Shown here: positions 2,583-40,532 of the stretch, piece after piece | Layout: every line of letters begins with the position of its first letter | Position numbering within the stretch: position 1 is the stretch's first letter | Source: Opitutales bacterium | GTDB taxonomy: Bacteria; Verrucomicrobiota; Verrucomicrobiia; Opitutales; UBA953 | NCBI GenBank assembly: GCA_009691685.1 | Contig: SIAU01000010.1 | Location: forward strand, 1-45,120 | DNA length: 45,120 nucleotides | Direction: 5' to 3' | The notes under the pieces: model-generated | What the model was told of the DNA's origin: nothing | Seen by the model: only the letters and a program-made list of their open reading frames with translations | Database searches by the model: none | Made by a program: the position numbers and the translations under genes

Positions 2583-3677
2583 TTATTTTTTAGGCTCGGC
2601 TTCAGCGGCAGGCTTATCTTCGGGAGCGTAAAGATAATCGATTTGTAAAGTGATCTCTGAAAAGTTTTGGTTAACGACAACCTTGCGTTCTTCCTTGGCA
2701 GGAGCCGTTGGAGTTGCGGAAGAACCCAGAATAGTAGGGCTTGCCATAAAGTCTAACGGTTCAACGGCCACCAAGCCAGGGGCTGCTAGGTTGGCAATCG
2801 CGTTGGTTCCTAAAACCTTCAGAGACTCGGGCTGTGGGTTACTGATTTCGATTGAAGTGACAACGATGGGACGTCCGCTATTACGGATTTTATTAATGAA
2901 GGTACGCAGCGTGGGCGTCGTCGCGACGAAACGGACGCGGAAAGAAAGTCCTTCAACTAAGGGAGGATTACGAAACGAACGCGTCGGTAAAAATTCGTCA
3001 TTTTCTCCGCGGGCACCTTCAACGGGTCCAAACGTACCCGCATTGGGTTTACCTGCAGCAATCACTTCGTAGGTTTCGATGGGTTCACGATCGATAGAGT
3101 GTAATAAAATGGCACTGCGGTTAGGCGTGGTGGGGCGTGAGTCGGCCAGCGTTTTGAAAAGAAAATCGATAATCTGGATTTGTTGATCAACTTTCGCTAA
3201 GTTCGCACCCTTCGGGGATGTGCCTGGGTTGCGGATGTATCGACGGAAGCCAAATTCACATTTTTCGTTAGTCAGCATGCGAATATCTTTATCCGCGGCG
3301 AGTTTCGTCCACTCATCGACATTCTGTTTGATCGACGAAGCTAAATCCGAACTCGCTAAGTTTTCCTTCCCGACAAATCGGTTCGTGGAGACTCCTGAAA
3401 TAGCCAGGCGAAGATCATCACGTTGTTTCAATAAGGCGTCCGTGTCTTGCTTAGAAGCGTCAACATTTTTGGCGCTTAACGAAACGGCCGGAGAACTTCC
3501 ATCCAGCTCCTGTCCTTTAAGCAGCTTACGGTACCGCGCTAAATTTTTATTTAGTTTATCCTCCGTATCTACTCTTTTGTTGTTCGCTAAAAAGCACAGC
3601 ACTACGCCGGCAACAAAACCTGCCAAGAGCACGGCGATTAAAATATAGAAACCTTTATTCTTTTTAAAATTTTCCAT
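2583..3677 (-). CDS. PilO-like inner-membrane protein, Amuc_1100-like
   Basis: This 364-residue protein has a single N-terminal membrane helix (about residues 10-30), then a Lys/Asp-rich predicted coiled coil (about 35-95), then a mixed alpha/beta region. The C-terminus ends in a beta strand (ITLQIDYLYAP) and a short acidic/lysine tail. This is the PilO architecture and also that of Akkermansia Amuc_1100, the protein known for TLR2 signalling. The position fits: directly downstream of the PilM-like gene (gap 5 bases) and upstream of the Amuc_1099-like gene. Inferred role: structural component of the inner-membrane assembly platform. The sequence is clearly diverged from Amuc_1100, so any immunological property should not be assumed. 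Confidence 0.7.
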   Translation of the reverse strand: MENFKKNKGFYILIAVLLAGFVAGVVLCFLANNKRVDTEDKLNKNLARYRKLLKGQELDGSSPAVSLSAKNVDASKQDTDALLKQRDDLRLAISGVSTNRFVGKENLASSDLASSIKQNVDEWTKLAADKDIRMLTNEKCEFGFRRYIRNPGTSPKGANLAKVDQQIQIIDFLFKTLADSRPTTPNRSAILLHSIDREPIETYEVIAAGKPNAGTFGPVEGARGENDEFLPTRSFRNPPLVEGLSFRVRFVATTPTLRTFINKIRNSGRPIVVTSIEISNPQPESLKVLGTNAIANLAAPGLVAVEPLDFMASPTILGSSATPTAPAKEERKVVVNQNFSEITLQIDYLYAPEDKPAAEAEPKK

Positions 3678-3682
3678 GGCAA

Positions 3683-5446
3683 TTAAAGGGCGTGGTCGGA
3701 TTTAATCACCAGCGTTAAGGTGGTGCGTGGGACGTTGGCCTCCTTGGTGAAATCTACTTTAATTTCATCTTCAGGAATTTCGGCCACGAAGGGGGATTTC
3801 TTAAGGCTTTCGACTAAAGCGGCTTTCCGCTCTTTAAATTCTTGAGCCTTGAAAGATTTTCCAGGGGGAACTTTCTCTAACAAAGTTCGCGTGGTAATGG
3901 TGACCCGAGTAACTTGGGTGGCGACCCTTGAAGCATCGGGCTCGGTACCCGTTGCGACGACAGCAGACTCTCGACGAACCCGCAATTCCTCGATCCAAGT
4001 ATTCTTAGCGGTGAGCACTCGAGATTGTAAATCAGCGAGGAAGATTGGCCAGTGGGGCGAGTTGGAAGCCACAAACTCCAACTGTTGGTTAACCGCTAAA
4101 ACAACGAGCGAGTCTTCCCGGCTTTGCTTGATCGACTTCTGGTAGGCTTCAATTTCGAGAATTTTTTTATCTAAATTTCCGGGCTTGAACTCGACAAATT
4201 GGTCGGGCTTTTTTTCGTCCCATTTCTTCGGGTTTTTCCAGTACTCCGAATTTGACTGTGCGTAGTTATACGTAACGGCGTCAGAAATAGCACTGTAAAT
4301 GAGCCAGGGCGAGAGGGCTAACAATAGCGCGGCGCCCGCGAATTTAATTTTTTGTGATTCGAAACTAATTTGTCCGGCGATATCACGAGGAATTAAATTA
4401 ACGCCGAGGGCCGCTGGTGAAAGTAAGCGAGAGGCTTCCCCGACAACTTCCGAAAGCTGGTGAAGATGCTGCATCACATACTCGGCACTGATATCGGAGC
4501 TCAGTGAAATGACACCGAGCGGATTAAATTCTTCGACCGGTAAGGCGAGTGCTTCGCTCAACTGTTGGCTTAATCCAGGAACTTGGCTACTGCGACCCGT
4601 GATAACAATTTTGGTCGGACGACGGCCCAGGCGCTTGATGCTGATGAGGCGGCGATTGATATCCTGACTCAGGCGACGATTAAAGCTTTGCTTGTTCGCC
4701 TCTAAAATAGCGAACTGCGGATCCGACTCAGGTAATTGAATGACGTGAGTAAAGAAGCCAACCTTAAGAGACTCCGCATTAATCACGGGCTGGCCGGTGT
4801 TATCCGAAATTCCTTGAGTCAGTAAATTACCTCCGAGATTAGCGGCCTGAATACTCGTTCCCTTCGAACTAATAAAACTTAATCCCGTGGTGCGGGCACC
4901 CACGTTGATAAATAAAACTTCGGCATCATCAGCGATACCACCACTGACAAATTGTTGAGCCTGTACATCTAAAATCGGAGCGGCTTGGATGACTTGCGGA
5001 CGAATACCGGTCAAGGCGATCGCGTTAGCAATCCGTCCGGCTTGATCCGTACGCAGAGCAAAAAGTAAAACTTCTGCTTCCACCCCGTCGGTCGACATAA
5101 TCTGACTATCCCAAACCACTTCGTTGAGCGGATAAGGAATATTATTTTGCGCCTCAAAGGCAATGACCTGGGCCTGGCGGGCACTATCTACTTGGGCGAC
5201 TTTTAAAGATTTTTGTAAAAGTAAAAAACTCGGAACGATGATGGTAGCAGTGCCCTTGATATTTTTGCTAGAGGCTAAACGGGTAACCGCACTGGTCGCT
5301 GCATTGATCCATTCTTCGTCGCCCAGTGCAGGAGTTAAGTCCTCGGTATAAAATTGTTCTAAAACTAATTTAGCGCCATCCGCACGAAAGGCCGAAATGG
5401 AAACGTGCGAAGCAGCGAGGTTAACGATTAAATTTTTCTTACTCAT
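3683..5446 (-). CDS. pilM: PilM-like actin-fold protein fused to a PilN-like membrane region, Amuc_1101-like
   Basis: At 587 residues this is much longer than a stand-alone PilM (about 350). Residues 1-350 look like the actin/FtsA-like PilM fold, with NLAASHVSISAFR at the start, FINVGARTTGLSFI near 177 and KIVITGRSSQVPGLSQQL near 280. A membrane helix follows (FAGAALLLALSPWLIYSAI, about 370-388), then a charged, partly coiled region and an alpha/beta C-terminus. That order equals PilN appended to PilM. The usual PilM-PilN partnership joins cytoplasmic PilM to membrane PilN, so one chain could do both jobs. The gene is second in the five-gene set, 15 bases downstream of the Amuc_1102-like gene. 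Confidence 0.78.
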   Translation of the reverse strand: MSKKNLIVNLAASHVSISAFRADGAKLVLEQFYTEDLTPALGDEEWINAATSAVTRLASSKNIKGTATIIVPSFLLLQKSLKVAQVDSARQAQVIAFEAQNNIPYPLNEVVWDSQIMSTDGVEAEVLLFALRTDQAGRIANAIALTGIRPQVIQAAPILDVQAQQFVSGGIADDAEVLFINVGARTTGLSFISSKGTSIQAANLGGNLLTQGISDNTGQPVINAESLKVGFFTHVIQLPESDPQFAILEANKQSFNRRLSQDINRRLISIKRLGRRPTKIVITGRSSQVPGLSQQLSEALALPVEEFNPLGVISLSSDISAEYVMQHLHQLSEVVGEASRLLSPAALGVNLIPRDIAGQISFESQKIKFAGAALLLALSPWLIYSAISDAVTYNYAQSNSEYWKNPKKWDEKKPDQFVEFKPGNLDKKILEIEAYQKSIKQSREDSLVVLAVNQQLEFVASNSPHWPIFLADLQSRVLTAKNTWIEELRVRRESAVVATGTEPDASRVATQVTRVTITTRTLLEKVPPGKSFKAQEFKERKAALVESLKKSPFVAEIPEDEIKVDFTKEANVPRTTLTLVIKSDHAL

Positions 5447-7909: not shown

Positions 7910-8708
7910 CACCCTCCTCTCCGCCTTTCAGGAAGATTTTTTTCTACGCGCCTTGCTCGCTTTATTTTTGAGCGGGATCTCCGCTGCGTGCCTAGGTTCT
8001 TATATTGTTTTAAGACGCATGTCGTTCATCAGCACCGCCATGACTCATTCGATTTTACCCGGCGTCGTGGGGGCGGTGCTCCTTGGATTTTCGGCCTATT
8101 GGGGCGCGCTCATTGCCGCATTACTCACCGCCGCGGGGATCGCTTGGATTTCATCGCGCAAGGGAAGTAGCGAGGATAGTGCGATTGGCGTGATGTTGTC
8201 CGTGATGTTCGCCCTCGGTATTGCCTTCATGGGCCTATCCCATTCGTGGCGTGATTTTACTGGGCTGCTTTTTGGAAGTATTGTTTCCGTCAGCACTGAA
8301 GATATTGGGGTGATTTTGGGCACCACTTGGATTGTCCTTTTTTGCCAAAGACTCGTGCATAAGGAATTGGAGCTGGCCTCGTTTGACGAAGAATATGCTC
8401 ACCTCTTGGGTGCCAGACCTGGATTACTTAGAGCCGTGCTGCTCATCTTGATTGCCTTAGCGGCCGTGGCTAGCGTCCGCTTAGTGGGAGCACTCCTGAC
8501 GACGGCTCTTTTTATTATTCCTTCAACGACCGGTGCTCTCATCGGAAAAAATCTTAAAGAAGTGATGTTCTGGAGCGTGCTCTGTGCCTGCGGTGGAGGC
8601 ACACTAGGTCTCCTCATTTCCTACTCCTTCCAAGGAATTCCTGCGGGTGCGGCCATCGTCCTCGGCTGTGCAATTCCCTACTTTGTCGTCCGAATCAAAA
8701 ACGCTTAA
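7902..8708 (+). CDS. Metal ABC transporter permease (ABC-3 family, ZnuB-like)
   Basis: A polytopic membrane protein of 268 residues from ATG 7902; a GTG at 7881 in the same frame is possible but would lengthen the overlap with the ATPase. It has about eight hydrophobic segments and family-typical stretches (VLRRMSFISTAMTHSILPGV near the N-terminus, VSVRLVGALLTTALFIIPS-like sequence near residue 190). This is the ABC-3 fold used by ZnuB, MntC and TroC/D permeases. It completes the importer begun at 6288. Its stop overlaps the stop of the convergent Arg/Ser-rich gene by four bases. Confidence 0.9.
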   Translation: MLNTLLSAFQEDFFLRALLALFLSGISAACLGSYIVLRRMSFISTAMTHSILPGVVGAVLLGFSAYWGALIAALLTAAGIAWISSRKGSSEDSAIGVMLSVMFALGIAFMGLSHSWRDFTGLLFGSIVSVSTEDIGVILGTTWIVLFCQRLVHKELELASFDEEYAHLLGARPGLLRAVLLILIALAAVASVRLVGALLTTALFIIPSTTGALIGKNLKEVMFWSVLCACGGGTLGLLISYSFQGIPAGAAIVLGCAIPYFVVRIKNA

Positions 8709-9040
8709 AGACGGGGCGAAGAAGAATCCCCAGAGCCCGATGGCGAACTACTGTCACCGCGGAAGTCGCCCCGAGAAGAACGGTCTCTTGGATAATCGGG
8801 ACCGCGTTCGCCCCTATGAGATGAACGCGAAGAGGAGGAATGTCTGGAACGACGAGAAGAACGACCCGATGAATGACGGGAAAAACCACGACTCTGGCGT
8901 GATCCACTGCGGCGCAATTGGCGGCTGCGACGTTCACGTTTTGAGAGCATCCAACTTCTAACACCAAATACGACGGCCATGATGATGGCAGCAAAGGCTG
9001 AAATATAAAGGAGAAAACTGTCTTCCATATTTAGATTCAT
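8705..9040 (-). CDS. Small membrane protein with Arg/Ser-rich tail
   Basis: This 111-residue protein has a membrane helix at about residues 8-30 (FLLYISAFAAIIMAVVFGV) and then an extreme Arg/Ser tail: SRQSRGFSRHSSGRSSRRSR and further SS, SR and RG pairs to the end. The tail is cytoplasmic if the N-terminus faces out, as the positive charge suggests. I do not recognise a family. A basic tail on a membrane anchor could bind nucleic acid or phosphate surfaces, but that is a guess. The frame is supported by the clean helix-plus-tail layout. A competing minus-strand frame (8695-8994) gives a less plausible protein. Confidence 0.6.
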   Translation of the reverse strand: MNLNMEDSFLLYISAFAAIIMAVVFGVRSWMLSKRERRSRQLRRSGSRQSRGFSRHSSGRSSRRSRHSSSSRSSHRGERGPDYPRDRSSRGDFRGDSSSPSGSGDSSSPRL

Positions 9041-9191
9041 AACACGAAATTAACATTAAGTAAACAGGCAAGGGATATTTTGTGGGCAAATCTCTGCTAG
9101 ATGAGAGAAAAGAGAGTGGGGCCGACGAATTATATACAGCCATGATGACCGATGAGACACCCCAGGCCAGGAGGATGACAGAAATAATTCC

Positions 9192-32447: not shown

Positions 32448-32864
32448 TTACTTCCGTCTTTTTGGCTGCTTCGATTTGTCTGTGCGGGACAGTGAAGATT
32501 CAAGCCACTGAGCATACGAAGTTTCGGTAACCTTACCTGAGGCCAAGCCAACGGTTTGGACAACCACTTCTACCTCGGGTGCGTTGAACTTTAATCCATT
32601 TATTTCGAGGAATAAAGCTGCAAGAATAAACCCGGTTCTCTTATTCCCGTCCACAAACGGATGTCCCTCAACAATACCCGCAGCATAAGCCGCAGCTAAT
32701 TGAGGCAACTTTGCTTTTTGGTATAGAAATAAATTTTGTGGGCGAGCCAGGGCAGATTCTAGCCGGCCTTGATCGCGGATTCCGGCATCACCACCATAAT
32801 CAGAAATCAGAACGCCGTGTATGATCTGACAGGCCTCTATCGTTATCCATTTCGGCTCTTTCAT
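32448..32864 (-). CDS. Doc/Fic-family toxin
   Basis: This 138-residue protein has the death-on-curing type Fic motif HPFVDGNKRTGF (His68, Phe70, Asp72, Asn74, Lys75, Arg76), with the Lys typical of Doc in place of the Gly of AMP-transferring Fic proteins. Doc proteins phosphorylate EF-Tu and stop translation. The Lys/Arg-rich C-terminal tail (TDKSKQPKRRK) is an extra. It overlaps the antitoxin stop by four bases (ATGA), as in many toxin-antitoxin pairs. Activity is inferred from the motif. Confidence 0.88.
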   Translation of the reverse strand: MKEPKWITIEACQIIHGVLISDYGGDAGIRDQGRLESALARPQNLFLYQKAKLPQLAAAYAAGIVEGHPFVDGNKRTGFILAALFLEINGLKFNAPEVEVVVQTVGLASGKVTETSYAQWLESSLSRTDKSKQPKRRK

Positions 32865-33147: not shown

Positions 33148-34512
33148 TTAAAAACCTTGGGTAATATAACTAAAAACCTCAGTTGGGCTTATAGAGTTAG
33201 GCACGCCCGCGTTCACCGACGTAATCATCACCGGCCAATCTAAAGGATCTTCGGGCACCCGGCCGTGCGAACCTTTTATTTTTTCTCCGGTTAAGGGTGT
33301 CAGTTTAAGTAAAGCACGTAGCCCTAAGCGTTTCTTTAAAAGAAACCAGGCTACATTTAATAAAGGAAACTTGATTGTTGAATCAATCAGCAGCTCAGCG
33401 GGATCATAACCGGGCTTGCGATGAATATCCACGGTCCGTGCATAATCGGGCGCCCGCTCGTCGTCCAGCCACCAATAATAAGAGAACCAAGCATTCTTTT
33501 TCGCGACGACGATAAAATCCCCAGAGCGCACGTGATTTATTCCGAGTTTCTTTTGTGTAACTTGATCTAAAACTTTTTCAACCCCATCAGTGCTTTCTAA
33601 AATCTTTCTAACTTCATCAAGCTTGCTACTGTCTTGGACAATCACGTGAGCGACTTGGTGATCAACGACGGCAAAGGCCTGAGAATTAAACGTATCTAAA
33701 ATTTCAACCCCAAGCTCTTCTTTGATTCTGAGCAGTCCGTATTTTCTTAAAATGCGGTTAAGCGGAATGTCCTGATTAACTTCAGTGATGGCATACTCGG
33801 ACACTATCATCACATCGACCCCTCTTTTCTCAAAGAACTCAATCAGTCCACCCACTAAATTATCGATATCCAGTCTCGCCCGACGAGCCTCTGCGCTCCT
33901 CGGACCAAATCTTTGTAAATCATAATCAAGATGCGGAAGATAAACTAAGTTTAAGTCGGGCTTCTGATTCTGCTCGATCCACTGAGACGCACGCGCAATC
34001 CACTGCGATGAAGCCAGGCCAGCAGCGGGTCCCCAAAAGTTTTTGAAGGGGAACTCGCCGAGATCAGCCTTCAGAGAATTTTTGATTTCGTAGGGATAGG
34101 TCGCTATATCAAAAACCTTACCGCCATCCGCCAAGTAATTGGGTCGAGGTGTGACCGAAATATCTGCCGAAGTTCCCATATTATACCACCAAAATAAATT
34201 AGCGATACGCAGCTTATGGGAACGTTGATGAAGTTTATCCCAAACCTTGGGCGCTTGGACGAGTCGATTAGACTGCTTCCAAAAATGCACTTCACTCAAT
34301 CCCCTGTCATACCAGCCATTGCCAACAATTCCATGAACGGCTGAACGCTCCCCGGTTAAATAATCGGACTGTGCAGTACAAGTAACAGCAGGAAATGCTG
34401 GAGAAATTTTGGCGGATGAGCCGCGCTTGGCAAATTGAGCAATGTGGGGCATTTCGCCCGACTCCAAATCGCGAGCGGAAAGACCAACTACATTTAAGAC
34501 AACACGGCGCAT
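33148..34512 (-). CDS. eboF: Alkaline phosphatase/nucleotide pyrophosphatase-like protein, EboF-like
   Basis: The 454-residue protein belongs to the type I phosphodiesterase/nucleotide pyrophosphatase fold. PAVTCTAQSDYLTGERSAVHGI (about 40-61) contains the nucleophile Thr region; LPHLDYDLQRFG (about 192) and MIVSEYAITEV have metal-ligand candidates, and IKGSHGRVPEDP (about 412) is the C-terminal His motif. In the second motif, Glu replaces the usual Asp-His pair (SDHG-like). No signal peptide is seen. It overlaps the EboD-like gene by 19 bases. As the last gene of the ebo-type run it would remove a phosphate or nucleotidyl group from the cluster's metabolite. Confidence 0.78.
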   Translation of the reverse strand: MRRVVLNVVGLSARDLESGEMPHIAQFAKRGSSAKISPAFPAVTCTAQSDYLTGERSAVHGIVGNGWYDRGLSEVHFWKQSNRLVQAPKVWDKLHQRSHKLRIANLFWWYNMGTSADISVTPRPNYLADGGKVFDIATYPYEIKNSLKADLGEFPFKNFWGPAAGLASSQWIARASQWIEQNQKPDLNLVYLPHLDYDLQRFGPRSAEARRARLDIDNLVGGLIEFFEKRGVDVMIVSEYAITEVNQDIPLNRILRKYGLLRIKEELGVEILDTFNSQAFAVVDHQVAHVIVQDSSKLDEVRKILESTDGVEKVLDQVTQKKLGINHVRSGDFIVVAKKNAWFSYYWWLDDERAPDYARTVDIHRKPGYDPAELLIDSTIKFPLLNVAWFLLKKRLGLRALLKLTPLTGEKIKGSHGRVPEDPLDWPVMITSVNAGVPNSISPTEVFSYITQGF

Positions 34513-35645
34513 GTTGATGAAAAGCGGTGGCGGAGTTCCGCGGTAACTTTTTTAATTACCTCACTCGATAATTCATGAACGTGGGTCGATTGCCCGATAG
34601 CAGTGGGCAATATTAGAGTCAGTTGCCCACCGAGATGCTCACGAAACTCTTCTAGACCCTGCAGTAGTGAATCACCGAGATTAATCTCTAGCTCCGTCGC
34701 GTATAATTGGAAACCTAAGCGAACCAGTAAATCAATGACCCGTTCCGATTCTGATTTAGAAAATAAACCAAGCTCGCGGGCGCAGAGTACATCAACCGCC
34801 AAACCAATGGCAACGGCCTCGCCGTGCGACAGACGATAATTAGATAAAGTCTCACATTTATGGGCGACCCAGTGACCCAAGTCGAGCGGTCGAGCCGAAC
34901 CGAGTTCAAACGGATCGCCGCCTTGGGTAATGTGCAGAGCATGCAGTTCAGCGGATCGACGAATGCATGCACCAATTAAAGTTAAATTTCCAGCAGCCAA
35001 CTCTCGTGAGTCTTTTTCTAGTGACTTGAAAAATTCAGGGTCTTTTAACAGAGCGACCTTGACGGCTTCAACTAAACCATCGCGCAGGTTTTTAGGACTA
35101 AGCGATTTCAGAAATGCTAAATCATTCACTACTGCATACGGCGGACTAAAAGTTCCTGTAAAATTCTTTTTCTGAAAAGCATTAATACCATTCTTCACCC
35201 CGACTCCGGCATCGGCCTGACTGAGGGTCGTTGAAGGCATCCGAATCAATCGCACTCCGCGATGGGCAATCGATGAAGCAAAACCGGCAGCATCCAAGAG
35301 TGCACCACCGCCAATAACGAGAACATAAGAATGGCGGCAAATCGCATCCCCTTCAATAGCGGCAAGGACGGCATTGACGACCGACTGATCTTTTTTACTT
35401 TCCTCACCACCCGTTAAAATCATTGGGGCGCGGGTTAACTTAATTTGATGAGCCTTTGCATACTCAATTAATTCCGACACCACAGCGGGGGACGTAGCGA
35501 CCAAGCCAGCATCAATAATCGGTAAAACTTTAGCGGCCCCCACCAGCTCTTTGAGAATATTGTTTTTAACAGCAAAGGCGTTCTCCGTGAAAAAGATTTG
35601 GTGGCGGTAAGACACCACAAATGAGAGATCGAGCCGGGAATTCAT
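34494..35645 (-). CDS. eboD: 3-dehydroquinate synthase-like sugar phosphate cyclase, EboD-like
   Basis: The 383-residue protein is a sugar-phosphate cyclase homologue. It has the NAD-binding GGGALLDAAGFASSIAHRGV (about 115-134), PSTTLSQADAGVGVKNGIN, the metal-ligand Glu in RDGLVEAVKVALL (about 190) and His in DLGHWVAHKCETLSNYRLSHGEA (about 255-276). A stand-alone shikimate-pathway AroB is shorter and usually sits with other aro genes; here the neighbours are EboC- and EboF-like genes. It may therefore cyclise a different sugar phosphate, as in 2-epi-5-epi-valiolone synthases. It lies 75 bases after the EboC-like gene. Confidence 0.82.
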   Translation of the reverse strand: MNSRLDLSFVVSYRHQIFFTENAFAVKNNILKELVGAAKVLPIIDAGLVATSPAVVSELIEYAKAHQIKLTRAPMILTGGEESKKDQSVVNAVLAAIEGDAICRHSYVLVIGGGALLDAAGFASSIAHRGVRLIRMPSTTLSQADAGVGVKNGINAFQKKNFTGTFSPPYAVVNDLAFLKSLSPKNLRDGLVEAVKVALLKDPEFFKSLEKDSRELAAGNLTLIGACIRRSAELHALHITQGGDPFELGSARPLDLGHWVAHKCETLSNYRLSHGEAVAIGLAVDVLCARELGLFSKSESERVIDLLVRLGFQLYATELEINLGDSLLQGLEEFREHLGGQLTLILPTAIGQSTHVHELSSEVIKKVTAELRHRFSSTCAVLS

Positions 35646-35720
35646 GGAAGCGTTACCTGCTTAGAGTGAAAGGTAGAGACACCCGAGGACAAGCCCAGTT
35701 CCACCTTTAAATTCAATCTC

Positions 35721-36674
35721 TTAGGTGGAAGGTATGAATTTGCGAAGCCCAAGGGTCATCCCAAAACAAATGGGCGGGGCGAGTACGGCCAGCCAAGCTA
35801 CTTCCCGCACTTGCGCGGTCCCGCCCCATGGTGCGATCATTAATAAAATAGTTCCACTCACGACTGAATCTAAAAGTGAAAAGGCAGCGATACGATCGGC
35901 CACGCGAGCGGAAATTCCTGCCGGTACCGGGTGACGGTGATTAGAAAAAACAATCCAAAGACTATAGAATATTAACGCACCCAAACTCCAGTAAGTATAA
36001 TTTCCATAAACGATGAGTGGTAGGGGTATTAAAAATAATAGGCGTTCAATCCAATAAGAGTTTTTAGCGGGCGTAAGCTCATACTTAGCCACCCAAGTCA
36101 GAGCATAAGTATAAATTCCCAAAACCACTGCATAAACATAAACGGTTGATGGTAACTCGTAGATGCCATGACAAGTTGCGACCATGAAGCCTATAATCGG
36201 CAGTAAGGCTCTACATGCACCCATCACAACGGGGGCTAGCGGATTACCTTTATGGGCAACATCGTACCAGAGAATAAAAACAACAAGCAGAGATGTTATG
36301 ATAAAAATGGGCGGTTTAAAAAACCTGCCGGCGGAGAAAGCTGAAAGTGCTAATCCTAATAATAATATAACAGTGCCGACCCACTTGGCTTTTGAACGAG
36401 AAATTAGACCGGAAGGCAATGGACGCTCGGGGCGATTTTTACAATCCCACTCGTAATCAAAAACGTCATTCAAAATCATACCCGCCACATACAGTAACGA
36501 GATTCCTAATAATAATATAAACAAGGTGCCACTCAGCGCCGATGGTACGACTACCGTCGGAGTTTGAATGACAGCAGCCATACCTAAAAGCCAGCCAGAG
36601 ATTACGTTAGACCAAACGGTGGGGAGATTGGAGCACCTTGTTAATACTAACCACTGTTTGAGATTCGCTTTCAT
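35721..36674 (-). CDS. eboC: UbiA-family membrane prenyltransferase-like protein, EboC-like
   Basis: This polytopic membrane protein (317 residues, about eight helices) has the first UbiA Asp-rich motif (NDVFDYEWDCKNRPERPLPSG, about 69-89). The second Asp motif is not recognisable: the matching helix reads GIYTYALTWVAKYEL. UbiA enzymes move polyprenyl groups onto aromatic or other acceptors; loss of the second motif could mean a different donor or a transport-like role. The start shares one base with the stop of the EboE-like gene (TGATG). Confidence 0.85.
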   Translation of the reverse strand: MKANLKQWLVLTRCSNLPTVWSNVISGWLLGMAAVIQTPTVVVPSALSGTLFILLLGISLLYVAGMILNDVFDYEWDCKNRPERPLPSGLISRSKAKWVGTVILLLGLALSAFSAGRFFKPPIFIITSLLVVFILWYDVAHKGNPLAPVVMGACRALLPIIGFMVATCHGIYELPSTVYVYAVVLGIYTYALTWVAKYELTPAKNSYWIERLLFLIPLPLIVYGNYTYWSLGALIFYSLWIVFSNHRHPVPAGISARVADRIAAFSLLDSVVSGTILLMIAPWGGTAQVREVAWLAVLAPPICFGMTLGLRKFIPST

Positions 36675-37846
36675 CAGGCAGGTCTAACTCCATATTGGCT
36701 GAGCTCATTTAAGACCCAGCGATACTCCGCCACGACTTGATCCGTCACATCCATCGACCTCAGTGACTGAGGCAAAACTTCCCAGGTATAGGTTTCGATT
36801 TCAAGTTCTCGCGCCCGACTAGGCTGCTTCATAATCACACCAAGAACTTTTTGTAAAAAATCTGTGGTATTGAAGAAGTCTTTGTCGATCGGCGATGAAT
36901 GCAGCGGTAAGTGAAAATGCACTCTCAACTCATTAAATTTCTTGAGAGCGTGAGTATCAACTAGGGCGTCAGGAATATCTTTAAAATAAGTTAAGTCACC
37001 CCCTTGGTTTTGCCCGATACACTGATGCAAATACGTGGGCTCGTCCATGCTAGCCAGGCGGCGCAATGCCTCATCCGTCGGCTTTAATCTCAAAGCAGAA
37101 CTTAAATGATATTTTAAAATCGGGGCGCCGTTCGCATTAAGTTTTTCTACCGATTGCGCAGCGTCTTCATACTGTAAGGCAAAGTGACACGTATCATAAC
37201 AAACACCTAAAAAATTATCAATCAGGCCCGGTGTAGTCTCCTGCCCTCGCAGTTGATCAAAGAAATCAATCGTCTGCTGAGTATTTTCAAAATAACCCAA
37301 CGGCTCAGGCTCTAACGCTAATTTCAGTGTCACGCCCGTACGGTCACGCAGGTGCAATAAATATTCAGTGCACTTTATAATATTTTTTTGAGATTCGGAT
37401 ACTTGAGACGCAGAACGATTGAATTTCTTAAACGTGCCGGGCAGCGTACTCACCGTGCCCTGCTGATTAGGCGGGTTTAATACCGCCAATAGGTCGAAAA
37501 GTTTTTGGGTGTATTCTAAGCGACTGGGGTCAGTCCAGTCGGGTAGAAATACCGATTCCTTAACGGACTGACCGTGAAATGCGCCGTAAGGAAATCCGTT
37601 AATCCCTGAAACAGTACAATTTTCTTTTTCGAGCCAGTCGCGAAAAGCGTTCAAGTTTTTTGCTAAGCCCAACTCATGAGCAGCCGAATTTCCTAATCTT
37701 AGTCCCACGGCATAGGGTTTACTCGGACAAACCTGTTGGCGGACTCTTAAAGTGTGCGCCTGGAGATTTGAAAAAGTTTCTGCCCAGCCGTCACCTCGAT
37801 GAACATTGGTGCAATACGCCAAAGAATGTCCCGAGGAAAGTTGCAT
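36674..37846 (-). CDS. eboE: Xylose-isomerase-like TIM-barrel protein, EboE-like
   Basis: This 390-residue protein opens with LAYCTNVHRGDGWAETFSNL, a family-typical start, and belongs to the xylose-isomerase-like TIM barrels labelled metabolite traffic protein EboE. Metal-ligand candidates are Glu in LKLALEPEPLGYFENT, Asp and His in GVCYDTCHFALQ, His in ILKYHLSSALR and Glu in ELEIETYTWE. There is no signal peptide. It follows the TatD-like gene by three bases and precedes the UbiA-like gene with a one-base overlap. It is longer than common sugar-phosphate epimerases. Confidence 0.86.
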   Translation of the reverse strand: MQLSSGHSLAYCTNVHRGDGWAETFSNLQAHTLRVRQQVCPSKPYAVGLRLGNSAAHELGLAKNLNAFRDWLEKENCTVSGINGFPYGAFHGQSVKESVFLPDWTDPSRLEYTQKLFDLLAVLNPPNQQGTVSTLPGTFKKFNRSASQVSESQKNIIKCTEYLLHLRDRTGVTLKLALEPEPLGYFENTQQTIDFFDQLRGQETTPGLIDNFLGVCYDTCHFALQYEDAAQSVEKLNANGAPILKYHLSSALRLKPTDEALRRLASMDEPTYLHQCIGQNQGGDLTYFKDIPDALVDTHALKKFNELRVHFHLPLHSSPIDKDFFNTTDFLQKVLGVIMKQPSRARELEIETYTWEVLPQSLRSMDVTDQVVAEYRWVLNELSQYGVRPA

Positions 37847-37849
37847 CCG

Positions 37850-38662
37850 TTAAATTACTTCCGGCCGAACAAATTTCTTTGATTGAGAGAGGAACTGAAT
37901 CGGATTCCCGAAAATTAAGTTATCGATGGCCTGAACGGAATGACCACGACGTTTCATTTCTAGCGCGGTCTTGGGTACGGAGAGTGGATCACTGTGACCC
38001 CAATCACACGCACTGTTAAGCCACACTCTTTGGGATGAAATCGTTTCGACCATATCGATAGCCCGCTGTGGGCTGGCTTTCGATTCGGGATAAAGCGTGA
38101 TACCTGCCCAGAATCCTTGGTCGATGACTTCTTTGAATGTGTGCTCTTCGACGTGGTCAATAATCACACGATGCGGCTCAATCTTCGGATTATTTTTGAG
38201 TGCATCCAAAATTAAACGTGTGCCCTTACGTTTATCTTCAAGGTGCGGCGTGTGTACTAAAATCAGTTGGTTGTATTTTACCGCTAAGTCGATGTGCTCC
38301 TCTAAAATCTTCATCTCGTTGCGGGTATTTTTATTCAAACCGATTTCGCCAATACCCAAAACATTCGGCGCATTTAAAAATTCAGGGATGAGCGCTAAGA
38401 CCTCGCGAGCTAAGCCCATGTCCTCTGACTCTTTCGAATTAATACATAGCCAAGAATAGTGAGGGATTCCTAATTTTTGGGCGCGGGCCGGTTCGTGTTG
38501 GGTGAGTTGGCAGAAGTAATCGTAGAAGCCGTCCGCCGATTTACGATCAAAGCCTGCCCAAAAGGCGGGTTCACAAATCGCGGCGCATCCGGCCAAGGCC
38601 ATCGCCTTATAATCATCAGTCGTTCTACTGACCATGTGTCCATGGGGCTCAATATATCGCAT
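37850..38662 (-). CDS. eboB: TatD-family metal-dependent hydrolase, EboB-like
   Basis: The 270-residue protein has an amidohydrolase TIM barrel with the metal sites in order: HGH (residues 6-8), Glu in GIGEIGL (about 105), His in LVHTPH (about 134), His in VIIDHVEEH (about 165) and Asp in NSACDWGHSD (about 219). The Trp after the final Asp and the HGHM start are unlike standard TatD nucleases (which begin DxHxH), so the substrate is probably not DNA. It follows a 90-residue gene by four bases and leads into the EboE-like gene. Confidence 0.84.
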   Translation of the reverse strand: MRYIEPHGHMVSRTTDDYKAMALAGCAAICEPAFWAGFDRKSADGFYDYFCQLTQHEPARAQKLGIPHYSWLCINSKESEDMGLAREVLALIPEFLNAPNVLGIGEIGLNKNTRNEMKILEEHIDLAVKYNQLILVHTPHLEDKRKGTRLILDALKNNPKIEPHRVIIDHVEEHTFKEVIDQGFWAGITLYPESKASPQRAIDMVETISSQRVWLNSACDWGHSDPLSVPKTALEMKRRGHSVQAIDNLIFGNPIQFLSQSKKFVRPEVI

Positions 38663-38666
38663 GGTA

Positions 38667-38939
38667 TTACAGCTTTGGCCAAACTCCGGTTGCAGCTTTC
38701 GTGTCAGATTTTTCTAAAGGTTCAGTGGTGGGGTCGCTCCATTGATTTAATATTTCCGCCACGCGATTCTTATTACCTTCGTTTAAAACTTTTAAGGCGA
38801 GGCGGAGTCCGCGGATGCGATGGTCGTCGGAACCCGCAGAGCGATCAACGCGGTCAAGGAACGCGGCGAGGTCTAACAACTTTGCCCGCGCGTCCATAAA
38901 ATGTAAATCGGCCACTTCTTTGCGCGTTGGAGAACTCAT
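38667..38939 (-). CDS. Small helical protein preceding the ebo-type genes
   Basis: This 90-residue protein has the pattern KEVADLHFMDARAKLLDLAAFLDRV, a predicted helix pair, followed by LRLALKVLNEGN and LNQWSDPTTEP. It has no signal peptide or membrane helix. It is translationally close to the TatD-like gene (4-base gap) and follows the glycosyltransferase-like gene (10-base gap). EboA would occupy this place in cyanobacterial clusters but is much longer, so this is not called EboA. I have no function for it; a scaffold or regulator of the cluster is possible. Confidence 0.68.
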   Translation of the reverse strand: MSSPTRKEVADLHFMDARAKLLDLAAFLDRVDRSAGSDDHRIRGLRLALKVLNEGNKNRVAEILNQWSDPTTEPLEKSDTKAATGVWPKL

Positions 38940-38949
38940 ATCGATTAAA

Positions 38950-39816
38950 TTAGAAGAAAAGTTGAACGTAGTGGGGAAATGTTACGTTTCTGTATTCGCC
39001 GTTAATCAGCGATGGCCAAATAAAGAGCTTCCCGCCTAAAGATCTAATACCAGCGTGAAAATGTACATGCTCACAGTATTGCCGACGACTAATCTTAAAG
39101 ATACCATCATTCGATGGTATCGATTTAATCGTGTAACCTAAATAAGGATTCGGGTTTTTTAGAATATAACTCATCCGATAAATCCCTAGCCCGCCAAAAG
39201 CAGAGTCCACTTCGATCGGTTTTTCCGTTGGAGAAAATGACGGAATTCTTTTTTTGAAGGTTTGATTAAAGGCCTCTTCGTTACTCACCGCCGGATGAGA
39301 ATTTTTATAGTCGATCACTTCTTCCCAGGCGTCTCCAGGGCAGAGAGTTTTATGCCTTAACGCCCAGATATCATAGTAGGTGCCAAGTTGATTCGCAAAG
39401 ACCCCAGCATTTTGTGAATCAGACTGAACAAATTGTATGGCTTTAGACAGTTCGCCCAAATCAATCGGCCAGGTGCCGACGTCATCCATATCAATTAAAA
39501 CAACTAGATCAAAATCCTTAAGGTTTTTATACGTGCGCAGACACTCCACATAAGTATTACGTAAAATTTCTAATTTAACTGTACGCACCCCTAGACTGTT
39601 TAAGCCATCAAAGTTCAATAATGTGAAATTGGGCCGGCCGCCTCCCCATCCATTAAGAATCGCCTTCGTATTGTCCGTTGAATCGTTTTCAAGAAATAGA
39701 AAAGCCGACTCCGACGCCAGGGTGGCCATGTTTTCGATGTTTCTTAAAACGGCAGGTAGGTGCTGGGCGCAGTTTTGAGCTAAACCGACAAAGGCGATTT
39801 TGGGCTTGGTTTCCAT
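38950..39816 (-). CDS. Glycosyltransferase-like protein
   Basis: The 288-residue protein starts PKIAFVGLAQNCAQHLPAV, has FLFLENDSTDNTKAIL (about 40-55), and a DxD-type motif in LVVLIDMDDVGTWP (about 104-117). This layout resembles GT-A type glycosyltransferases of the cryptococcal mannosyltransferase 1 (CAP59) kind. The end is aromatic-rich (HYVQLFF). No membrane helix is seen. It is the first gene of the minus-strand run leading into the ebo-type genes and may glycosylate the same product, though it could just be a neighbour. Confidence 0.72.
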   Translation of the reverse strand: METKPKIAFVGLAQNCAQHLPAVLRNIENMATLASESAFLFLENDSTDNTKAILNGWGGGRPNFTLLNFDGLNSLGVRTVKLEILRNTYVECLRTYKNLKDFDLVVLIDMDDVGTWPIDLGELSKAIQFVQSDSQNAGVFANQLGTYYDIWALRHKTLCPGDAWEEVIDYKNSHPAVSNEEAFNQTFKKRIPSFSPTEKPIEVDSAFGGLGIYRMSYILKNPNPYLGYTIKSIPSNDGIFKISRRQYCEHVHFHAGIRSLGGKLFIWPSLINGEYRNVTFPHYVQLFF

Positions 39817-39882: not shown

Positions 39883-40347
39883 TTACTTAGGATCTTTTTG
39901 AAATTCTTCTGCGGTCCAAGGGGTTTTGCGATCAGCGTACTTTGCTTTAATCGCCTTAACCTCATCCTCGGTAACGACGGGGCCAGTGTTACCAAATGAG
40001 TTTCTTACATAGCTCACCACATCCGCAATATCACCGTCACTTAATCCGGTGACTGCGGGCATCATGCCATTGTAGATGGTGCCTTTAACGGACACTGGAC
40101 CAGTCATCCCATGTAAAATATTTCGCACGGCCACTGAGGGAGCCATCGCCACCCACTCCGATCCAGCGAGTGGTGGAAATACAGGAGGAATACCCAAGCC
40201 GGTCGGCTGGTGACAGGCAATACAGGTGCGGCTATAAACAGCCAGTCCGCGCTTCATCACTTCCGGTGATGGCGGATTCTTGTCTTCAGCATTAGCCATC
40301 ACCGAAAGGGCCAGAAGAAAAGTGAGGCTTAAAACTTTGTGATTCAT
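39883..40347 (-). CDS. Exported class I c-type cytochrome
   Basis: A start at ATG 40347 gives 154 residues with a signal peptide (MNHKVLSLTFLLALSVMANA); an upstream GTG at 40380 would spoil it. The haem-binding motif is CIACH (about 42-46) and the likely axial Met is in NGMMPAV (about 94). PPVFPPLAGSEWV after the haem site is typical of small monohaem cytochromes c of Verrucomicrobia and Planctomycetes. It acts as an electron carrier outside the inner membrane. The partner dehydrogenase is not next to it. The gene is divergent from the AraC-type regulator. Confidence 0.88.
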   Translation of the reverse strand: MNHKVLSLTFLLALSVMANAEDKNPPSPEVMKRGLAVYSRTCIACHQPTGLGIPPVFPPLAGSEWVAMAPSVAVRNILHGMTGPVSVKGTIYNGMMPAVTGLSDGDIADVVSYVRNSFGNTGPVVTEDEVKAIKAKYADRKTPWTAEEFQKDPK

Positions 40348-40532
40348 GATATAACCCAAAGAGTGAATTGCCGTTTTCACAAATCATTCCGTCATTCTTA
40401 TTTTAGAAATACCGCATTTTAATTCAGCCTCTAAGCGTGGCTTATAGCCTAATAGTACTTAAAATACTTGCGGCCGTGCTTATTTAGTTAAAAAATCCAT
40501 TAAATAGTAGGTTTTAAAGACTAACCCATTGT

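Follow-up and report, generated by a model that had tools for sequence, protein, structure and literature searches.

Six ebo genes lie in one tight run in the 45,120-nucleotide stretch of DNA analysed here (the window), and they raise the question of what kind of molecule such an operon makes and what each of its proteins contributes. The ebo genes were reportedly first described in 2016. Two features of the system bear on the question: a cyclase swap that points to one chemical class for the ebo product, and an EboF protein to which databases and papers give an activity unsupported by its residues. A reading of the window from its letters alone (the sequence-only reading) had tied the ebo genes of Nostoc to export of a scytonemin precursor. 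This tie is as published, and single-gene ebo deletions stop metabolite export in Nostoc (PMC6282210).

An eboG-type operon common in Verrucomicrobiota

The window belongs to an Opitutales-like draft genome of the Verrucomicrobiota and carries, at positions 33148-38939 of the minus strand, an eboG-type ebo operon in the order G-B-E-C-D-F. The five ORFs named in the sequence-only reading were confirmed in place and strand, as were their fold families (PF01663 for EboF, PF01761/PF24621 for EboD, PF01040 for EboC, PF01261 for EboE and PF01026 for EboB), and the whole run, the sixth gene eboG included, is tightly packed, with intergenic spacings of -19, +75, -1, +3 and +4 bases. The cluster had been called complete, which holds in the eboG form only, with eboG (38667-38939) lying undescribed inside the same span. 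A profile check against the Ebo families gave a divided result: EboE and EboD exceeded curated cut-offs, EboC fell below its own, and EboB and EboF matched no Ebo-specific model, so that the identity of these last two rests on homology and gene order. Both match homologues in 11/11 plasmid ebo loci, EboF with 409-480 bits and EboB with 188-368 bits, the latter divided into 357-368 bits with the eboG loci L147, L148 and L151 versus 188-237 bits with the other eight.

The same gene order was found in 20 of the 100 Verrucomicrobiota loci examined, a count that includes some contigs twice and many other loci cut short by the end of their contig, and dN/dS relative to the nearest relative (L033) is at most 0.16 for all six genes. 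This recurrence and these ratios argue that the gene run is not due to chance. The nearest named locus is that of an Opitutales MAG, also of the Verrucomicrobiota, with an EboE 90% identical. The ebo cluster is present in 65/194 Verrucomicrobiota genomes, and the window holds a further example of a known operon type, common in this phylum. The ebo operon known from eustigmatophyte plastids, Bacteroidota and Cyanobacteria shares the enzyme families B, C, D, E and F and the tight arrangement (PMC5133447), whereas the window has eboG for eboA, the order G-B-E-C-D-F against ABCDEF, and a distant EboC (118 bits against a curated cut-off of 250). The eboG-type operon of Deinococcus and others resembles the window in that an eboG homologue adjoins eboB (PMC5133447), but the Deinococcus order is D-G-B-E-C-F. 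The ebo genes of the Nostoc punctiforme scytonemin system form a homologous set (PMC6282210). On the Gloeothece plasmid L191, EboB and EboD are the only Ebo proteins encoded within the stretch examined.

Verrucomicrobiota loci lacking eboD or eboF near eboE were considered as broken pathways, a reading rejected because the genes lie elsewhere in the genome. Sixteen such split loci were found; among the 15 genomes checked (L112 was excluded), an EboD-grade match was present in 14 and EboF elsewhere in 14, with eboD and eboF adjacent on one contig in 10, and a single genome (G247) had neither. An Rfam scan of the window gave zero matches, and promoter and terminator scans gave scores inside the shuffle spread. 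In IMG/VR, 13 stretches fitted a pattern and none coded for a relative, the single-sequence query reaching close relatives only.

EboG, EboB, EboE and EboC

The first of the six genes, eboG (38667..38939, minus strand), encodes a small helical protein of 90 aa, assigned by homology and position, with zero family matches among NCBIfam and Pfam profiles. It shares 36% over 85 aa with the small ORF ahead of eboB in the Deinococcus ebo locus (E 1e-6 in a single comparison), and it stands directly ahead of eboB in relatives too. The predicted structure consists of three helices (pLDDT 79.6, pTM 0.58). That EboG might be a shortened EboA was rejected, as hhalign found no similarity between them; the 2016 authors, who defined eboG in Deinococcus-type taxa as a substitute for EboA, had already stated this dissimilarity (PMC5133447).

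The remaining proteins were compared in alignments from which short or X-containing ORFs and duplicates had been removed (EboB, C, D and E); some ORFs were translated from stop to stop and carry extra residues ahead of the start codon. The TatD-like metal-dependent hydrolase encoded by eboB (37850..38662, minus strand; PF01026, 38 bits) has H9, E106, H137, H170 and D220 in 63/63 rows and H7 in 61, with gaps in the other 2. These six residues, H7 included, are presumably the metal ligands, and the metal residues of EboB are thus likely to be intact. EboE (36674..37846, minus strand) is a xylose-isomerase-like TIM barrel that scores 408.3 bits against NF035939 TIM_EboE (cut-off 250), and a search for solved structural relatives returned none at E 0.01. 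The UbiA-type membrane prenyltransferase gene eboC (35721..36674, minus strand; PF01040, 72 bits) has prenyl_rel_EboC as the best NCBIfam match of its product, at 118 bits and under the cut-off of 250; N69, D70, D73 and D77 are present in 68/68 rows, and motif and locus position fit EboC.

EboD is a cyclase distinct from AroB

The sugar-phosphate cyclase EboD (34494..35645, minus strand) passes NF004852 with 479 bits over a cut-off of 333. Residues H235, R252, D255, W259, E336 and H337 occur in 52/52 EboD rows, where 9/9 AroB rows have K, A, N, T, K and V. Three of these six EboD-specific residues, R, D and H, are common to the EEVS ValA, while H262 and D244 of EboD are the same as in AroB and are replaced by P and N in ValA. 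The sequence-only reading had named a cyclase falling inside housekeeping AroB as a result that would overturn it; on a tree with 25 of the 52 EboD rows, the EboD clade stands outside AroB with support of 100/99. The genome of the window also carries a separate AroB, and among 15 other Verrucomicrobiota genomes an EboD-grade match (~50% identity) was found in 14, an AroB-grade match (~30%) in 14, and 13 of the genomes had the two together. The identity of EboD with AroB is rejected by the tree, the residue pattern and the separate AroB genes.

INO1 replaces EboD in some other lineages

Among 47 plasmid EboE records, 15 carry EboD (42.9-48.5% identity, among the best 60 of 113 EboD matches) and no INO1. 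The other 32 have no EboD-grade match among the best 60 of 113, and 29 of them carry INO1, the INO1 match beginning 4.4-5.2 kb from where the eboE match begins; the remaining 3 of the 47 have neither cyclase nearby, judged from the best 60 of 113 EboD matches, in which an EboD of lower coverage could be missed, and from all 44/44 INO1 records. PF01658 and PF07994 are over cut-off in 3/3 INO1 proteins tested. As judged from these matches, INO1 is shown to stand in EboD's place in other lineages. The INO1 label requires two changes on the best EboF tree, and strongly supported branches alone force one. We did not find this swap in the literature searched.

An ebo-like cluster also occurs on four haloarchaeal plasmids, three of them with INO1 according to annotated gene content; EboF and EboB were checked in all four, the remaining genes only in L192. 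Haladaptatus L198 has no annotated INO1 within the stretch examined. Halomarina L193 has INO1 and lacks ebo genes, so INO1 alone is no ebo marker. The loci L153 (Actinomycetota) and L192 (Halobacteria) have EboB, a UbiA protein and EboF in common with the window, L153 also EboE and EboA, but differ from it in having INO1 for EboD and additional TIM-barrel proteins. Those of L192, the one haloarchaeal locus scanned, reach at most 27 bits against the EboE model (cut-off 250). The characterised substrate of INO1 is hexose phosphate and its product a cyclitol. The nearest cyclases of EboD use heptulose phosphate (PMC5133447). Since the substrates differ in this way and the prenyltransferase of the tested INO1 locus is also different (376 bits to SCO3242_trans, 126 to EboC), the EboD and INO1 forms of the cluster may differ in their products.

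EboF has lost most of a two-metal site

The protein encoded by eboF (33148..34512, minus strand) has the NPP phosphodiesterase fold (PF01663), with the two-metal site mostly replaced. Its catalytic positions were taken from an alignment with Xac NPP, the last His being placed via paralogues; the catalytic set of Xac NPP comprises a nucleophilic Thr together with six residues that bind the metals, D, D, H, D, H and H. EboF has V, T, D, Q, E, Y and H at these seven positions in 60/60 bacterial rows (51 distinct, from six phyla and no cyanobacteria), so that D, H, D and H at four of them, presumably D54, H214, D257 and H258 in Xac NPP numbering, have become V, Q, E and Y. Relative to NPP-type phosphodiesterases such as Xac NPP (2gsn), EboF thus carries other invariant residues at four of the seven catalytic sites. 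The first row set comprised 27 Verrucomicrobiota and 11 rows from five other phyla, all above 350 bits, with the truncated contig-end pieces L034 (70 bits) and L042 (295 bits) excluded; the second contributed a further 22, taken from 14 Verrucomicrobiota genomes, and over a 300-residue core 51 of all 60 rows are distinct. Outside these counts, L195 fits the pattern, as does the remainder of L194, whose N-terminal part is missing in the frame read.

All 4/4 paralogues compared, which come from four of the EboF genomes, retain D, T, D, H, D and H, a comparison that excludes other PF01663 matches of the window's own genome. Archaeal EboF has V, E and Y in 4/4 rows, with L for Q in 3. The structure model of EboF was built from 14 sequences and is metal-free. 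The protein had been called alkaline-phosphatase-type, which is right for the fold family, whereas most metal ligands of that family are absent. Because Thr, one Asp and one His are kept, binding of one metal and some activity are possible. The residue replacement was not found in the literature searched.

A lipid-linked cyclitol as the proposed product class

We give even odds to the whole explanation that the eboG-type operon makes a lipid-linked cyclitol, with a role for EboF other than two-metal catalysis. A cytoplasmic cyclase, EboD here and INO1 elsewhere, would convert a sugar phosphate to a cyclitol. This would be tailored by EboE, the TIM barrel, and by the hydrolase EboB, and EboC, in the membrane, would attach a prenyl chain to it. 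EboF, alike in both cyclase variants and for this reason placed at a common late intermediate, would bind or process it by some means other than two-metal phosphodiester hydrolysis, and EboG or EboA would assist as a small helical protein. The resulting lipid-linked cyclitol would then aid the passage of other small molecules into the periplasm. That two unrelated cyclases fill the same slot supports a cyclitol as the head group that EboC prenylates, and the sequence-only guess of a cyclitol lipid gains from this swap. The UbiA homology of EboC also speaks for the explanation, as does the loss of export in all Nostoc ebo mutants tested (PMC6282210). Points against it are the AroB-like H262 and D244 of EboD, the 3 plasmid records with neither cyclase nearby among the matches listed, the single change of the INO1 label that strongly supported EboF branches force, the differing substrates and prenyltransferase of the two variants, and the Thr, Asp and His retained by EboF. 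The idea itself had already been proposed (PMC5133447). Slightly short of an even chance is the broader proposition that a prenyl-cyclitol route is common to bacteria and archaea, its ring made by EboD or by the unrelated INO1, probably swapped more than once, and that EboF, rather than working as a two-metal phosphodiesterase, has been repurposed as a non-canonical member of the NPP fold that acts at the point where the variants converge.

Two alternatives follow published names. The NCBIfam model passed by EboD is called 3-dehydroquinate synthase, as expected of a second housekeeping AroB in a cluster for aromatic amino-acid synthesis; with a separate AroB in the window's genome, both genes in 13/15 others, a clade apart on the tree and a different residue pattern, we consider this extremely improbable. 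A role for EboF as a conventional phosphodiesterase or pyrophosphatase that dephosphorylates a pathway intermediate accords with its published annotation and is unlikely, given V, Q, E and Y at D54, H214, D257 and H258 in 60/60 bacterial rows, canonical paralogues (4/4) and V, E and Y in 4/4 archaeal rows.

The product could instead be a prenylated aromatic such as a quinoline, EboD supplying the aromatic precursor. The AroB pattern is absent from EboD at six positions in 52/52 rows, and INO1, a cyclitol-making enzyme, replaces EboD, which makes this product improbable. It draws strength from the EboC homologue Ubi-297, which farnesylates 8-hydroxyquinoline-2-carboxylic acid and quinaldic acid; the quinoline farnesylation by EboC homologues, the only biochemistry on them in the literature searched, with 6/14 aromatic acceptors used, tells against the cyclitol-lipid view, but the acceptor panel consisted of aromatics only, with no cyclitol (PMC9235831). 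More doubtful still is an export machine built from the Ebo proteins themselves, with no carrier molecule made. In its favour, one and the same monomer piles up in the cytoplasm of all Nostoc ebo mutants tested; that study saw no lipid-conjugated monomer, in an analysis that left eboD outside, which counts against the cyclitol-lipid view (PMC6282210). Yet EboC alone of the six Ebo proteins is of a membrane-protein family, EboB and EboD have invariant enzyme residues across phyla, and replacing one cyclase by another is sensible only if a product is made.

Genes upstream of the operon

Ten bases upstream of eboG lies a glycosyltransferase-like gene (38950..39816, minus strand; PF11735, 21.7 bits, below the cut-off of 28.8), with a homologue at the same place in the nearest relatives (L033, L053 and L061) and no match in other loci. 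Farther upstream lies a gene for a class I c-type cytochrome with a signal-peptide-like start and a CIACH motif (39883..40380, minus strand; PF00034, 46 bits), possibly the first gene of the ebo unit. Such a cytochrome c, located in the periplasm, may in this genus act on the molecules that arrive there. A cytochrome c gene lies upstream of eboG on the same strand in 21/21 loci of the genus and close relatives with enough upstream DNA and in 0/31 others, some contigs having been entered twice in this count.

Identification of a six-gene ebo operon

The draft genome carrying the window comprises 1.33 Mb in 57 contigs and is 88% complete; the closest named locus, in an Opitutales MAG, has an EboE 90% identical. 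From 40380 to 33148 on the minus strand run genes for a c-type cytochrome, a glycosyltransferase-like protein, a 90-aa ORF, and TatD-like, TIM-barrel, UbiA-like, cyclase and NPP-like proteins, separated from first to last by 66, 10, 4, 3, -1, 75 and -19 bases. Gene content, gene order and curated models, passed by EboE and EboD, confirm the ebo cluster at 33148-38939; EboC gave the correct top match with a score below the cut-off. The interpretation as ebo is supported, with one correction (to EboF, where V, Q, E and Y replace four of seven NPP catalytic positions in all 60 bacterial rows, drawn from six phyla) and one new argument (INO1, inositol-phosphate synthase).

The sequence-only reading had spanned the 90-aa ORF but left it undescribed; it is eboG. 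This ORF also precedes eboB in relatives and matches the small pre-eboB ORF of Deinococcus (36% over 85 aa, E 1e-6), a taxon among those for which eboG was defined as a stand-in for eboA (Yurchenko et al. 2016, PMC5133447). The AlphaFold model of EboG has three helices, and profile comparison found no similarity to EboA. By the queries used, 11 plasmid ebo loci carry EboA (7), EboG (3) or neither (1), and none carries both. The low dN/dS against the nearest relative, L033 (F 0.066, D 0.048, C 0.160, E 0.095, B 0.042, G 0.012), indicates purifying selection on all six ebo genes. EboC (35721-36674) is 88% identical to that of L033 and only 44% to that of the congener L035, with which EboB shares 82%.

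EboD is distinct from housekeeping AroB

A 38-row tree separates EboD (25 rows) from AroB (9) with support of 100/99; the EEVS cyclase ValA has a very long branch and an unsure placement. Six positions are invariant in EboD (52/52) and different in AroB (9/9). A second cyclase of the genome, on another contig and 33% identical to EboD, groups with known dehydroquinate synthases. Tree and residues contradict a reading of EboD as a second housekeeping AroB and agree with the 2016 tree as presented in PMC5133447, where EboD forms its own clade. The label '3-dehydroquinate synthase' that NCBIfam NF004852 gives to EboD (34494-35645) is unsupported by the tree.

INO1 replaces EboD in other lineages

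Among 47 plasmid records with EboE, 15 hold an EboD homologue (42.9-48.5% identity). The best 60 of 113 EboD plasmid matches include one further of that grade, from a Gloeothece plasmid that carries EboB as well as EboD (43.6%); the remainder of those 60 reach 36.5% or less. A Streptomyces INO1 query matched 44 records, none of them among the 15. INO1 occurs in 29 of the 32 other EboE records, namely 25 of 28 Streptomyces, two Embleya, one Nonomuraea and one Gemmatirosa, with eboE and INO1 match starts 4.4-5.2 kb apart. Three records remain: two from Streptomyces that carry B, E, F and an EboA remnant, and a third in which EboE stands by itself within a polyketide cluster. Because many Streptomyces records are close relatives, they represent few independent events. 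Mapped onto the best EboF tree, the INO1 label requires two changes, and two to three on bootstrap trees, never one, although a single change suffices if just the strongly supported branches are taken.

Haloarchaeal plasmids, from Halocatena, Halobaculum and Natronococcus, combine TatD and UbiA proteins, TIM barrels, INO1 and EboF; a Haladaptatus plasmid has the same set with no INO1 annotated in the fetched stretch. On a Streptomyces plasmid (L196), a lone EboE (7965-9143) lies within an aromatic polyketide cluster.

A cyclitol head group as the proposed product

Two unrelated cyclases share one slot beside a prenyltransferase, for which a prenyl chain bearing a cyclitol head group is the best explanation. 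We infer the steps from EboD to EboC; EboF and EboB, kept in both variants, would act after these converge. An isoprenoid-cyclitol was proposed from EboD and EboC in 2016 (PMC5133447); Klicki et al. 2018 put forward a cyclitol lipid carrier (PMC6282210). That EboC homologues farnesylate quinolines, as described in PMC9235831, counts against a cyclitol and for a prenylated aromatic such as a quinoline, which we consider an unlikely product. In the INO1 locus examined, the prenyltransferase belongs to a different subfamily; this too counts against the cyclitol reading, and may point to a different product for each variant. Searches of a paper library for EboA together with SCO3242, a prenyltransferase or inositol-3-phosphate synthase, for INO1-UbiA-TatD-cyclitol combinations, and for prenylated cyclitols returned only known ebo or unrelated papers.

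Distribution and neighboring genes

EboE is present in 31 of 57 kinship-group genomes, the window's own included; of 194 genomes sampled across Verrucomicrobiota, 65 have an EboE scoring above the cut-off. The string Verrucomicrobi- is absent from the main texts of PMC5133447, PMC6282210, PMC6092422, PMC6529634 and PMC9235831; as NCBI models already name such genes, ebo in this phylum is an extension rather than a discovery. The operon is ordinary as a cluster and useful as a case.

A cytochrome c gene with a signal-peptide-like start lies upstream of eboG on the strand of the operon in the window (39883-40380, minus strand); it has this place and strand in 21/21 loci of the window's genus and close relatives and in 0/31 others. 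A Fic/DOC gene follows eboF in the window (32448-32864, minus strand), L033, L053 and L061, the loci with the glycosyltransferase insert. Elsewhere, a ferritin-like protein follows a large hypothetical protein near ebo genes on one plasmid each of Bacteroidota, Betaproteobacteria and cyanobacteria (L149 1856-3124, L152 5008-6090 and L191 14000-15118). Salipiger sp. CCB-MM3 has eboE, eboD and eboF matches on two plasmids, NZ_CP014597.1 (L145) and NZ_CP014598.1. In Ketogulonicigenium (L144 3786-5832), two oxidoreductases of the Gfo/Idh/MocA family, which includes inositol dehydrogenases, immediately precede eboD. Adjoining genes at 2583-5446 (minus strand) of the window are related to the Akkermansia pilus-like families Amuc_1100 (50 bits) and Amuc_1101 (187 bits), each below its own cut-off.
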